Positions 14,024-25,979 of a DNA stretch of 52,319 nucleotides are shown one piece after another. The stretch comes from an uncultured Oceanisphaera sp. (lineage in GTDB: Bacteria; Pseudomonadota; Gammaproteobacteria; Enterobacterales; Aeromonadaceae), in assembly GCF_947495715.1 (NCBI RefSeq), contig NZ_CANLZU010000024.1, positions 1-52,319 of the forward strand, in the 5' to 3' direction. Made by a program: the position numbers and the translations under genes. The notes under the pieces were generated by a model, which saw nothing but the letters and a program-made list of their open reading frames with translations, had not been told where the DNA came from and searched no databases. Each line of letters opens with the position of its first letter. Positions within the stretch are counted from its first letter, which is position 1.

Positions 14024-14971
14024 TTATAGACCAAACACCAGCGCCTTGAGTCCGGCCTCCGGGTCTATGTCGGCAAACTCGGGCGGGTTGTCCAGTCGCT
14101 CGACAAAGTGCAAGGCTGGCGCCTGCTCGGCCATGTTATCGATCAGAAACCGGCTGGGCACATTCGGGTCGTTGACACAGGCCAGCACCTGACCGTTTTC
14201 ACTCAGCAGCTCGGGCAGGCGGCGCAGTATCTTGTGATAGTCCTGGGTCAGGGCAAAGCTGCCCTTCTGGAATGACGGCGGATCTATGATGATCAGATCA
14301 TAGGGTCCCAGTTTGCGCACCTTGCCCCAGGACTTGAACAGCTCATGACCGAGAAAGGCCACCTTGCCCAGATCGTGCCGGTTGAGCCGGTGATTGTCCC
14401 GGCCTCGGCTGAGTGCCGCCCGGGCCATGTCCAGATTGACCACCTGCTCGGCGCCGCCTTCGATGGCCGCCACCGAAAAGCCGCAGGTATAGGCAAACAG
14501 ATTCAGTATCCGCAAGCCCCGCGCCTGTTGCCGCACCCAGCGGCGACCGAGCCGCATATCGAGAAACAGCCCGTGATTCTGATTACGGCCCAGCTCCAGC
14601 TGATAGTGCAGGCCCTGCTCGCGCACTCGGGGGCGTGGCTCCAGCGTTCCCCATAATACTTCTACCGGCGCCCCTTCCCGGCTGCGGTGTTGCAGCACCA
14701 ATGCGCGGGCACCGCTCTGTTGCCAGGCGTCCTGTTCGGTCAGACTGTGCAGCAGGGTGTTAAGCTCGGTCAGAAACTCGCTTGTTGGCTCCTTGAACAA
14801 GGACACCAGCAACTGCCCATCCAGCCAGTCGGCGGTGAGCTGCTCCAGCCCCGGCCAGCAGCGGCCCCGGCCATGAAACAGCCGCCGAATCTCATCGGGG
14901 TGTTCATCTTGGGCCTGTTCGAAGGCGGCACACAGTTGGCGATAAAAAACGGGCAGGGCGTAGGTATCCAT
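14024..14971 (-). CDS. Class I SAM-dependent methyltransferase (RlmI/RlmK-like)
   Basis: This 315-aa protein has the Rossmann methyltransferase features of the rRNA cytosine/guanine methyltransferase group: SAM-binding LRILNLFAYTCGFSVAA, an acidic residue in VVNLDMA, and the catalytic-loop motif IIIDPPSFQKGSF. It resembles the C-terminal half of RlmKL in this same window (FAYTGTAS, DPPTFSNSKR) and lacks an obvious PUA domain. The substrate is probably RNA, but the exact base is not identifiable. ATG 14971. It is transcribed alone, with the next gene on the same strand about 190 bp upstream. Confidence 0.85.
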   Translation of the reverse strand: MDTYALPVFYRQLCAAFEQAQDEHPDEIRRLFHGRGRCWPGLEQLTADWLDGQLLVSLFKEPTSEFLTELNTLLHSLTEQDAWQQSGARALVLQHRSREGAPVEVLWGTLEPRPRVREQGLHYQLELGRNQNHGLFLDMRLGRRWVRQQARGLRILNLFAYTCGFSVAAIEGGAEQVVNLDMARAALSRGRDNHRLNRHDLGKVAFLGHELFKSWGKVRKLGPYDLIIIDPPSFQKGSFALTQDYHKILRRLPELLSENGQVLACVNDPNVPSRFLIDNMAEQAPALHFVERLDNPPEFADIDPEAGLKALVFGL

Positions 14972-22593: not shown

Positions 22594-22914
22594 TTATTCA
22601 AAATCAGCATCTTCTGATAACGATTCCATTATTTTGAGCCAGGCTCCTTTGTGCGACCAACGGCTATAACGAACGTAAACACGGTGCCAATTGCCATAAA
22701 ACTCGGGTAAGTCCCGCCAAGGAGAGCCGGTTCGAACAATCCAGAGTACTGCCTCGACGAACTTGCGATTCATGGGATAAGTCTCGTCAAACATGGATTG
22801 TGAATGGCATTCGATACCCCAAAGGACTTGTTTGCTAACTGCTGCCAGTGAGCTCAAGGGCAGGGGATTGATGTAAATCCAAGGCTTGGCCTTTGCTGAG
22901 TTGGTATCCATCAA
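22594..22914 (-). pseudogene. Truncated IS5-family transposase (DUF4096 part)
   Basis: NRKFVEAVLWIVRTGSPWRDLP, FYGNWHRVYVRYSRWSHKGAW and a terminal SEDADFE match the N-terminal DUF4096 domain of two-frame IS5-family transposases. The catalytic DDE part that normally follows in the next frame is absent: downstream sequence reads into an unrelated short frame. The N-terminal 40 residues also look non-homologous. Neither terminal inverted repeat was identified. It is a dead fragment. Confidence 0.75.
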
Positions 22915-23262: not shown

Positions 23263-23634
23263 ATGAATGTATGGCTGAATACCGACTGTCCGGCACTGAT
23301 GATGTTGTCAGCCGAAACAGAGCGACCAGAGCAACAGGCATGGATCTGGTGGCCACGTGCATTATCCGATCAAAACGTTGAGCAAGAACCGAGGATGCTG
23401 TCGGCATTAGCCCGTGATGATGTGGACTGGCAGTCGAGCAACCGGATCTTGCTGGAGAATGAAGACTTCCGGGATTTCATCTCTGAAACGACACAAGCTA
23501 TTGCGCCGACGGGCCGCCGGAACAACTGGCGGCCCGTTTTTTATATCTGGTACCGGCAATCTTGCGCAGCAGATCAGGGGCAGGTGACTGGATGGTGGAT
23601 CTCATGGCTTTGTAAAAATCTCACTTTTAACTGA
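23263..23634 (+). CDS. Uncharacterised ORF with terminator inside its 3' part
   Basis: I do not recognise this 123-aa product. The start at 23263 has GGAG 6 nt upstream; an earlier in-frame ATG at 23203 lies inside an inverted repeat and is less likely. The first ~80 residues (NVWLNTDCPALMMLSAE to FRDFISETT) look like a normal acidic soluble protein. A strong intrinsic terminator at 23509-23542 lies inside the reading frame, so the last ~40 residues, Trp-rich and unlike the rest, are probably read-through of a mutated stop or a fusion to non-coding DNA. It is likely a damaged gene. Confidence 0.4.
   Translation: MNVWLNTDCPALMMLSAETERPEQQAWIWWPRALSDQNVEQEPRMLSALARDDVDWQSSNRILLENEDFRDFISETTQAIAPTGRRNNWRPVFYIWYRQSCAADQGQVTGWWISWLCKNLTFN
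23509..23542 (+). terminator. Strong intrinsic terminator left of dif
   Basis: ACGGGCCGCC and GGCGGCCCGT form a perfect 10-bp stem with a 9-nt loop, followed by TTTTTT. It lies within the preceding ORF and about 140 bp from dif. Confidence 0.9.
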
Positions 23635-23678
23635 AACCCACACAACACAGACCTGAAGTTCAGAGATTCATAAACCTT

Positions 23679-23706
23679 ATTTAACATAATATACATTATG
23701 CGAAGT
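23679..23706 (-). other. dif: dif, chromosome dimer resolution site (XerC/XerD)
   Basis: Read on the minus strand the 28-mer is ACTTCGCATAA-TGTATA-TTATGTTAAAT. Compared with E. coli dif (GGTGCGCATAA-TGTATA-TTATGTTAAAT) the XerD arm and central hexamer are identical and the XerC arm matches 8 of 11, for 25 of 28 overall. XerCD recombine here, under FtsK control, to resolve chromosome dimers. The site marks the replication terminus. It lies between a terminator and the 3' end of a tyrosine recombinase gene. KOPS octamers on both sides point towards it. Confidence 0.96.
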
Positions 23707-23752: not shown

Positions 23753-25039
23753 TCATGTATCAAGCCTGTCCAGTCGCTTACCGGCGGCGCTTTCATGGCG
23801 TTCCACCTTGCCGGTGTGCAGATATTGCGAGGTGGTGTCTATGCTGTCGTGACCGGCGTCGGCCTGCACATGAGACAAGGGTCGGCCGTTATAGTTGATG
23901 TCGTGAGTAATGCCGGTGTGGCGAATACTGTGTACGGTCAGGCTACGCATTTCACTGGCGTCCTGCTCAAAACCGTCTTCGGCGGCGGCATCGGCGGCGG
24001 CGGCCATAAGTTCGTTGAGCAGGTCGCGCAGTTGGCGTATGCCGAGGTTGGCGTTAAGCAGACCCTGATCCCGCCCCCGACCGGCGGCCCTGTGGCGCAC
24101 AAACAGCGGCGTGGCGTCGTTGGGTGCCGGCAAAGGCGACAGCTTGAGATAACGGCGATAACACTGCAGCGCTTCCAGCAGTTCGCGGGATACGGCCACG
24201 GTGCGTTTTTTGCCGCCTTTGCTGACCGGAATATGAAAGCTCCAGATCCCGCTGTGACCGTCGCGGCGAAACTGGCTCATCACCGGCGAAAAACCGGGCC
24301 TTGCCGCGACTTCCGAGATACGCAGGTAGCAGCCGTACATCAGGGAGATCAAAAACAGGGAACGCTGGTGCCGCTCGGGCGCTTGTTCTGCCAGCAGACG
24401 CGCGGTACTCATCACATAGGACCATTGCAGATCGCTGAATACCCGCACTTCGTCTTCGTCACCCAGGCCCGCCACCACCACGGGGCTGGAGCCGAAACGG
24501 CTGTGACGCATCCACATCACGGCCGGGTTTCGCTCGGTGACTTCTTCGTTGATCAGGTAGCCATAGAAGGAAGACAGGATGGCCATCTTGGTTTTCAGCG
24601 CCTTGTCGCTCAACCGGTATGGCTGCTCGATACCGTCGACTTTTTTACCCAGGAATGGCCGCCACTGCAGGTTGGGCTGGCGTTCGCCCCAGTCCTTGTT
24701 CAGTACAAACTGGGCCACGTTACGGTAGGCAATCAATGCCGTCGGTGGCGCCAGGCAATACTCCACGTAACGGTTAATGCCCCGACGGTTCAATTCGATG
24801 GGCGAAACCTGCTCGACGTCGAAGCACCAGTGTAAAAAGGTGGTCAGCTCGCTGCGGTAGGTCTTGTAATTGTTCTCGTTGAAGCGGCTTTCCAGCAGCC
24901 AGTCCATGGCATGCTCATAAATAAAGGCGGCATCGGGTACCGCATTCAGGGTGATATCGGCAATATGCTGGTTAACGACGCTGTTGCCCTCTTCGAGAAA
25001 CTGGGGGGCATCAAACAGCGGTAATACGGGGGCATTCAT
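23753..25039 (-). CDS. Tyrosine recombinase adjacent to dif
   Basis: The 428-aa protein has a SAM-like core-binding domain (about 40-170) and a catalytic domain (about 200-415). All catalytic residues are visible: Arg 240 (YLRISEV), Lys in SKGGKKRT (274-278), His 370 and Arg 373 (HSIRHTG), His 397 (AGHDSID) and nucleophile Tyr 406 (TSQYLH). It is longer than XerC/XerD (about 300 aa) and is not either of them. GC content matches the core genome and no excisionase, phage or cargo genes accompany it. It ends 47 bp from dif; its upstream region holds a perfect 15-6-15 palindrome. The start at 25039 (MNAPVLPLFDAPQ) is the best family-like Met. Confidence 0.9.
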   Translation of the reverse strand: MNAPVLPLFDAPQFLEEGNSVVNQHIADITLNAVPDAAFIYEHAMDWLLESRFNENNYKTYRSELTTFLHWCFDVEQVSPIELNRRGINRYVEYCLAPPTALIAYRNVAQFVLNKDWGERQPNLQWRPFLGKKVDGIEQPYRLSDKALKTKMAILSSFYGYLINEEVTERNPAVMWMRHSRFGSSPVVVAGLGDEDEVRVFSDLQWSYVMSTARLLAEQAPERHQRSLFLISLMYGCYLRISEVAARPGFSPVMSQFRRDGHSGIWSFHIPVSKGGKKRTVAVSRELLEALQCYRRYLKLSPLPAPNDATPLFVRHRAAGRGRDQGLLNANLGIRQLRDLLNELMAAAADAAAEDGFEQDASEMRSLTVHSIRHTGITHDINYNGRPLSHVQADAGHDSIDTTSQYLHTGKVERHESAAGKRLDRLDT

Positions 25040-25095
25040 AGGACTGATGATTCCGAGGTCGGCTGTATGGATGCACAGTGTAACGTATTCATAAA

Positions 25096-25131
25096 GACTA
25101 ATGCCGATAAATACAGTTATCGGCATTAGTC
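25096..25131. repeat. Perfect 15-6-15 palindrome, candidate recombinase core site
   Basis: GACTAATGCCGATAA (25096-25110), spacer ATACAG (25111-25116) and TTATCGGCATTAGTC (25117-25131). The arms are perfectly complementary. The inner ATAA-N6-TTAT and the 6-bp spacer reproduce the layout of dif, and the spacer shares ATACA with dif read on the plus strand. It stands between the recombinase (minus) and the hydrolase gene (plus), so an operator role for either gene is an alternative. It has no T-run, so it is not a terminator. Confidence 0.75.
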
Positions 25132-25196
25132 ACTCTCTCCATGCCAACCATCACTTGTTCTATGCTTATGCATCAGTCACAACCCGGACAGACATT

Positions 25197-25979
25197 ATGA
25201 ACAGATACGGCTTGATGGTGGCCGCGCTACTGGGGTTTTCGACTCAGGCGGCGGTGGTTAGTGAATCGGTGAGTTATCGGGTCGATGGTCAGGAATTCAA
25301 GGGCTATCTGACGTTTGATGACAGTCAGACCTCCCCGCGGCCCGGTGTACTGGTGGTGCATGAATGGTGGGGACTGAATGACTATATTCGTGGTCGTGCC
25401 GAGATGCTGGCCGAACTCGGCTATGTTGCCCTGGCACTGGACATGTACGGTGACGGCAAAGAAGCCTCACACCCTGCCGAGGCCGGTGAATTCGCCAAGG
25501 CATCACTGGCTTCCCTCCCCCTGGCCGAGCGTCGTTTCAACGCGGCCCGCGAACAACTGGCCCGGCATCCGCGGGTGGCCAGCAGTCCTATTGCCGCCAT
25601 TGGTTACTGTTATGGCGGTGGCGTGGTATTGCACATGGCGCGTAATGGTGCGCCTCTGGCGGCGGTCGCCAGTTTTCATGGATCCCTGACGCCCAGGGCC
25701 AATCCCCTGCCCGCGAATAGCAAGACGCGTATTGCGGTGTTCAATGGTGCCGCGGATCCGCTGGTTCCCGCCGATCAGGTCGCCGCCTTTCAACAGGAAA
25801 TGGAAACGGCCGGCGCCGATTATCTGCTGGTGAATTATCCCGGTGCCCTGCACGCCTTTACCAACCCGGACGCCGATCGGGTGGCGGCCGAGTTCAAGAT
25901 GCCGGTGGGCTATGATCAGGCGGCCGATCTGGACTCATGGAGCCAACTGCAGACGTTTCTGCAAGAGACGTTTGAGTAA
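25197..25979 (+). CDS. Dienelactone hydrolase family protein, exported
   Basis: The 260-aa alpha/beta hydrolase begins with a short signal peptide (NRYGLMVAALLGFSTQAAV). The Cys-Asp-His triad of the family is present: nucleophile Cys in GYCYGGG, Asp in GAADPLV and His in ALHAFTN. HEWWGLNDYIRGRAEML is the usual oxyanion-side block. Such enzymes hydrolyse lactones or small esters; this one would act in the periplasm and its substrate is unknown. The 33-residue extension to an upstream ATG crosses the palindrome and is rejected. It is convergent with the next gene, 9 bp away. Confidence 0.9.
   Translation: MNRYGLMVAALLGFSTQAAVVSESVSYRVDGQEFKGYLTFDDSQTSPRPGVLVVHEWWGLNDYIRGRAEMLAELGYVALALDMYGDGKEASHPAEAGEFAKASLASLPLAERRFNAAREQLARHPRVASSPIAAIGYCYGGGVVLHMARNGAPLAAVASFHGSLTPRANPLPANSKTRIAVFNGAADPLVPADQVAAFQQEMETAGADYLLVNYPGALHAFTNPDADRVAAEFKMPVGYDQAADLDSWSQLQTFLQETFE

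Follow-up and report, generated by a model that had tools for sequence, protein, structure and literature searches.

A tyrosine recombinase gene (TR) and a perfect dif-like palindrome (S28) lying beside the dif site of an uncultured Oceanisphaera sp. probably constitute a single-recombinase, dif-type module for the resolution of chromosome dimers, coexisting with XerCD/dif in this genome and having replaced XerCD/dif elsewhere. The stretch of DNA analysed, referred to below as the window, is 52,319 nucleotides long, and its features are collected in Table 1. The reading is carried by the gene and the site themselves, their conservation and position, the catalytic residues of TR, purifying selection on the gene and the persistence of the pair in genomes in which XerC, XerD and dif were not detected.

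In the proposed mechanism, each of the two identical 11-bp S28 arms would be bound by a TR monomer, the two S28 copies of a chromosome dimer would come together at the septum, and the dimer would then be resolved by strand exchange within the 6-bp centre, one S28 being expected per chromosome, at the terminus. XerS/difSL, XerH/difH and XerL/dif likewise resolve dimers by means of one recombinase. In the window's genome such a pair would act as a back-up or accessory system beside XerCD/dif, and in several relatives from other families it would apparently be the sole system left.

Table 1. Positions of the features discussed in the text, numbered from the first letter of the window.
Feature	Position	Strand	Description
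Non-coding motif	23612..23638	-	GGTTTCAGTTAAAAGTGAGATTTTTAC; on the other side of dif from TR
dif site of the XerCD system	23679..23706	-	ACTTCGCATAATGTATATTATGTTAAAT; 25/28 vs E. coli dif
TR, tyrosine recombinase gene	23753..25039	-	428 aa; PF00589, 40.3 bits (longer ORF)
S28, perfect 11-6-11 palindrome	25100..25127		AATGCCGATAA-ATACAG-TTATCGGCATT; candidate TR recombination site
Divergent dienelactone-hydrolase-type gene	25197..25979	+	PF01738; putative start

The dif site and the replication terminus

The first-pass annotation had described a near-perfect dif site, with the XerD arm and the central hexamer fully intact, and concluded that the window spans the chromosome terminus. The site was recovered at the same coordinates and on the same strand, with the same number of identical bases and with both parts intact, in a comparison with E. 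coli dif. No dif matches appeared in 100 shuffles of the window, and a search of the own genome (3,645,871 bases in 82 contigs) for a better dif elsewhere revealed no second match with up to three mismatches. A dif-like site, single in each genome, was present in 66 of the 75 genomes of the window's family.

Eighteen of the 19 copies of GGGNAGGG, the KOPS motif, in the window were directed toward dif (p = 3.8e-5), with six on the plus and one on the minus strand to the left of dif and none on the plus and 12 on the minus strand to the right. The switch of strand fell between 22858 and 25513, with a single exception at 14672. The cumulative GC skew, which had been expected to reach its extremum at dif, peaked within the window at about 34 kb, some 10 kb off the site, which is compatible with a terminus here and is not sharp. 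In the single-contig chromosome of a relative from the same genus (G051), 20-kb samples showed positive skew in 10 of 10 cases before dif and negative skew in 9 of 10 after it, the switch being located between 1.48–1.50 and 1.53–1.55 Mb and dif at 1,514,580. The own genome encodes XerD (394.4 bits to the XerD model, above the cut-off of 329.6) and a second protein with 280.3 bits, assigned as XerC-type from its score with the same XerD model, as well as two other integrase-type proteins away from the window's dif. The KOPS switch, the sole dif match of the genome, the presence of XerD and the XerC-type protein and the skew switch at dif in the relative bear out the placement of the window at the terminus. 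These data support the view of the window's dif as a normal XerCD-type site of 28 bp (XerC arm, 6 bp, XerD arm), ordinary as such. With XerD, a XerC-type protein and dif all present, dimer resolution in this genome therefore need not involve TR.

Two further features were noticed on the non-TR side of dif. The non-coding motif of Table 1 was considered as an insertion-sequence end and dropped, the own genome giving one match at up to three mismatches; a similar sequence, judged by eye, adjoins dif in five other loci (L108, L109, L110, L114 and L116). Between 18000 and 23500 the GC content goes down to 0.445 versus about 0.57, and this region holds an MFS transporter, an IS5-type transposase fragment (22594–22914) and unnamed ORFs.

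A tyrosine recombinase gene linked to dif

The unusual part of the window, overlooked by the first-pass annotation, is an additional, conserved tyrosine recombinase that adjoins dif and is accompanied by a dif-like palindrome of its own. The 3' end of TR lies 46 bp from dif, and its probable start was put at the Met codon at 25039 because the longer ORF, extending to 25126, runs through S28. Residues R240, K274/K277, H370–R373, H397 and Y406 are present and invariant in 13 aligned sequences; they correspond to the catalytic R, K, H-x-x-R, H and Y of the family. Judged by these residues, TR has the complete catalytic set of one tyrosine recombinase, as expected of a single-recombinase Xer system. 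The longer ORF stayed far below the equivalog cut-offs of both XerC (52.6 vs 335.15 bits) and XerD (46.3 vs 329.6 bits), and TR fell outside the XerC/XerD rows of the tree with a support of 100/100. TR is 94% identical to the window's protein in O. arctica, 91% in O. psychrotolerans and 95% in O. litoralis. The dN/dS values relative to the window were 0.04–0.06 in three Oceanisphaera and 0.09–0.14 in five other relatives, the pair with O. pacifica being saturated, and point to strong purifying selection on TR. The AlphaFold model was of moderate confidence (mean pLDDT 75.4, pTM 0.52); its top Foldseek matches were Cre, XerA, IntI and XerH, with low whole-chain TM-scores (TMq about 0.2–0.3). 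With one query sequence, the PDB sequence search returned solely IntI4 (E 0.0032), and a XerH chain was absent from the matches at E 0.01.

TR was found in 68 of the 75 genomes of the window's family (E 1e-10), including one 71-residue match and one gene split in two, and in 76 of the 295 genomes of the order (E 1e-20). Among the matches listed, TR and dif shared one contig in 72 genomes, a count that omits 13 genomes in which the two are on separate contigs, five with TR and no dif match and those for which no place of dif was listed. In the window's family dif was located 3' of TR in 55 of 55 cases, 24 of them with a distance of up to 250 bp and 52 with one of up to 30 kb; TR is therefore regarded as a resident neighbour of dif and not as a passing integrase. 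Outside this family, among the matches listed, dif was 3' of TR in 11 of 17 genomes and 5' in the remaining 6. By eye, dif was 3' of TR in all 11 genomes of the Shewanella-like family (f6) that have the two on the same contig, at most 250 bp away in six, and lay 0.3–1 kb 5' of the distant TRs of G309 and four genomes of family f17. Where marker genes were seen, ccoN was on the TR arm and the thiamine-binding, lonH and fabA genes on the opposite one, the exception being a Ferrimonas locus (L106) with TR on the lonH side. In one relative (L157, genome G192) TR is spread over two reading frames, and the intact dif lies about 13 kb from a damaged dif-like site.

Phage and plasmid data bear on an alternative explanation, according to which a mobile element targeting the dif region supplied TR as its integrase, or the fossil of one, and S28 as its attachment site. 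The dif region is indeed a phage hot spot. In G010, a filamentous phage and a transposase occupy the interval between TR and dif, the phage genes being of the Zot-family, DUF2523, RstA-like replication and repressor kinds; a dif-like sequence follows right after TR, and an S28 belonging to the phage is located 745 bp from dif. In G037, S28 is found in tandem 7,726-bp copies, about 46 bp from a dif-like junction (att), and the element found in G055 has no S28. In one phage type S28 is placed between the rep and repressor genes. The scan of viral contigs revealed 65 stretches with S28, among which 33 had this rep type and 26 the host-type TR; a loosely defined dif-like site was present within 1.5 kb in 28 of the 65, the remaining ones including pieces of long contigs in which S28 possibly occurs by chance. 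Six of the 65, all predicted viral records (L291, L305, L308, L321, L322 and L325), start no more than 5 bp from S28 and include the host-type TR, and their ends may therefore reflect S28 repeats and not true phage ends. TR as a phage gene was a rejected candidate, with one weak match among 50,697 phage records.

Plasmid records matching TR numbered 1381; among the matches listed, 25 of 40 represented one Tn4401-type match (27.6%, E 6e-8), and identities above 35% were confined to Vibrio, Photobacterium, Shewanella and a chromosome-sized Aeromonas record. Around TR on eight fetched plasmid stretches, the best match to dif had 16 of 24 bases. The Shewanella baltica plasmid pSbal01 (L189) has ccoN, TR and S28 close together, as if a piece of the terminus had moved to a plasmid.

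The phages between TR and dif, the six viral records starting at S28 and the S. baltica plasmid would all suit a mobile-element integrase. On the other hand, TR holds a constant place relative to dif throughout the family, its dN/dS is low, and a chromosome lacking matches at the XerC/XerD level retains it close to the skew switch (described below). The perfect S28 is single in most genomes searched (see below), the own genome included, and TR is found in most of the family, unlike an integrative element with sporadic presence and two bounding att copies; moreover, the phage junctions observed have att sites resembling dif. Such an origin of the pair is therefore considered unlikely.

The S28 palindrome

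S28 is situated in the gap between TR and the divergent gene (25040–25196), upstream of TR. Its perfect arms reach 13 bp (25098–25129, CTAATGCCGATAA-ATACAG-TTATCGGCATTAG), and the inner 28 bp share the 11-6-11 geometry of dif. The own genome contains one perfect S28 and a one-mismatch copy on contig 17. A copy with all 18 tested arm bases was detected in 41 of 43 genomes from four families, own genome included, with the reversed-pattern control giving matches in 3 of 43. Thirty-eight of the 41 had a single copy and three (G059, G070 and G300) had two; the misses were G053, with an arm one base short, and G063, which has no TR. Five of the searched genomes carry an additional copy with one mismatch. 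With up to two mismatches allowed, S28 was matched in 69 of the 75 family genomes and the reversed control in 7 of 75, some of the two-mismatch matches recurring far from dif and looking unrelated.

In the 62 genomes with both sites in the fetched piece, the distance between S28 and dif was at most 2.2 kb in 60, the exceptions being G055 (8.9 kb) and G044 (7.9 kb). Eight fetched pieces had dif and no S28, and seven of these came from the distant TR group. The arms are fixed and the centres vary, with 30 different ones after strand collapsing (phage copies counted), as would be expected of a recombination core. Of 1200 random 230-bp pieces drawn from the same loci, with S28 allowed among them, 23 contained a perfect 10-6-10 palindrome. 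S28 has the features of a single-recombinase site: a palindrome of about 28 bp with a 6-bp centre, at the terminus and linked to the recombinase gene.

The position of S28 also invites a regulatory explanation. In the simple layout it is found roughly 60–130 bp upstream of TR, and in one phage type between rep and repressor; these promoter-like spots count against the recombination-site reading and, together with the free centre, which also suits a dimeric regulator, would fit an operator or hairpin through which TR and phage genes are regulated. TR would then be a resident recombinase with its true site elsewhere, perhaps at dif. In the 67 genomes mapped, however, S28 was upstream of TR only in 30, between TR and dif only in 23, in both places in seven and in neither in seven, so S28 tracks dif more than it tracks the TR promoter. 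In L121, the upstream copy has decayed (three mismatches) and the perfect one lies between TR and dif, and in G301 a perfect related site is located 56 bp from dif with TR on another contig. A single host copy, which is not a regulon, and a geometry identical to that of dif also make a purely regulatory palindrome improbable, and S28 is better read as the putative site of TR.

If TR recombines S28, a phage that introduced another S28 of matching centre and orientation would leave TR flanked by direct repeats and liable to be deleted. Two changes that were observed, the decay of one copy and a differing centre, would each prevent this.

Among the 20 genomes in the genus group of the window, nine have dif in the flipped orientation relative to TR, with the arm genes keeping their sides where seen. 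The relatives with inverted dif are L111, L113, L114, L115, L118, L119, L120, L121 and G059, together with L143 outside the family. Inversion by flanking S28 copies was considered and rejected: S28 was found beyond dif solely in G031, G074 (one mismatch) and G127 (two mismatches), and S28 copies therefore do not explain the dif inversions.

Loss of XerCD/dif and relation to known Xer systems

Among 36 distant or plasmid loci inspected, G143 had no TR match and 35 had a TR with 26–52% identity. An upstream palindrome with a 6-bp centre and 0–1 mismatch was present in 18 of the 35, with arms TCCGTATAA, (G/T)TCCGATAT, GTCCGATAC, GTCCAATAC or GTCTAATAC; related arms include GTCCGATAT, and those of G326 are common to a 610-kb Alteromonas plasmid. 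Four loci had other palindromes (G309, G321, G275 and G327). No palindrome or an unrelated one was found at 13 of the 35 loci (G301, G161, G222, G146, G148, G163, V. hepatarius and six plasmids), including Vibrio and Photobacterium plasmids with 49–52% TR identity; the G161 site appeared in the site-pattern search described below. The TR site and the TR protein change together.

In families f7, f8 and f17, dif was missing in 10 of 20 genomes with TR versus 4 of 35 without it (p = 0.003), a comparison of families picked after the pattern had been seen and of kin that are not independent. Across all 295 genomes of the order, the absence of dif was no commoner with TR (11/76) than without it (39/219). 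A shorter dif pattern gave no matches in the ten dif-less genomes with TR, apart from a three-mismatch match in G256, where the control was equal. The XerD model was then applied to 28 chosen genomes: 16 scored above 329.6 (367–399 bits), each with a second match of 270–296 bits, and the 12 under the cut-off comprised the ten dif-less genomes with TR, which belong to three other families, and two TR-less ones (G143 and G292). In the ten, the best match reached 79.8–205.7 bits, and G161 retains a broken XerD remnant. All ten had the TR site beside TR, eight of them perfect and two with one mismatch, as judged by a pattern drawn from these same genomes, with the reversed control matching in 6 of 30 when one mismatch was allowed; a further copy, with one mismatch, is present in G090. 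Among TR-less genomes, 2 of 14 had a one-mismatch match to the site elsewhere.

The single-contig genome G201, without dif and without a match at the XerC/XerD level, has TR and its palindrome at 2.136 Mb. Of the GC-skew samples of this chromosome, the 10 taken up to 2.145 Mb are all positive and the 10 beyond it all negative, placing TR about 9 kb from the sign change. In the TR tree, which has several long branches and unsure deep joins, the dif-less genomes are spread over three or more parts, in one of which their sisters carry dif. To judge by the XerD model, the ten genomes have no Xer system other than TR and its site, unlike the window's genome. That TR is an accessory of XerCD at dif, an activator or a guard against phages, and not a second resolution system is very improbable: the proximity of S28 to dif and its presence in dif-integrating phages, in G037 so close to att, would agree with it, but TR and a site are retained in genomes in which dif, XerC and XerD went undetected.

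G143 and G292 have no dif, no XerC/XerD-level matches and no TR, and therefore the loss occurs without TR too. In the single-contig chromosome of G143 (3,348,343 bases), a weak Xer-like match of 125 bits (L285, G143:C1:1666802-1667614) is located almost at half length and is perhaps yet another substitute; no convincing palindrome was found near this gene.

A wider reading, for and against which the arguments seem to us evenly balanced, is that TR/S28 represents an undescribed gammaproteobacterial type of dimer resolution, perhaps shared with large plasmids. It would work in tandem with XerCD/dif in the Oceanisphaera–Aeromonas group, the Shewanella-like family and other families, and would have supplanted XerC, XerD and dif at least twice among other marine-type lineages; filamentous phages that integrate at dif would carry its site in order to keep a working copy by dif or to use TR. 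No description of TR or S28 was found among the papers listed by searches of the open-licence literature. One of the S28 arms occurs as text in 237 papers, with nothing relevant among the 15 matches listed (titles and starts of abstracts).

Among known systems, the filamentous phages integrated at dif (IMEX) resemble those found between TR and dif here in their dif-like att sites, and the one annotated phage has an RstA-like rep and Zot-family genes. The difference is that several phages here additionally bear the S28 of the host, the G055 element being one without it. Because several carry S28, dif-integrating filamentous phages are worth a second look.

The XerCD/dif system of gammaproteobacteria shares with TR/S28 a 28-bp 11-6-11 site at the terminus, whereas TR would act alone, on a site that is fully symmetric. 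XerH/difH and XerS/difSL are similar in having one Xer-like recombinase and a terminus site linked to or near its gene (PMC2731167), but TR coexists with XerCD/dif in the window. XerL/dif of Legionellales is likewise a single-recombinase system, with a site of perfectly symmetric 10-bp arms; the likeness to TR is drawn from the published description of XerL (PMC9765430). That paper reports XerL/dif where XerCD was thought to be missing, a mobile element using its site and an orthologue search naming a Legionellales database (PMC9765430). Carnoy and Roten left open how dimers are resolved in large-genome proteobacteria without dif/Xer, e.g., Colwellia psychrerythraea, and whether another recombination system stands in (PMC2731167). 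TR with its site is a concrete, testable candidate for this role in the relatives analysed here that lack XerCD, and the window's group illustrates the state in which both systems are present side by side.
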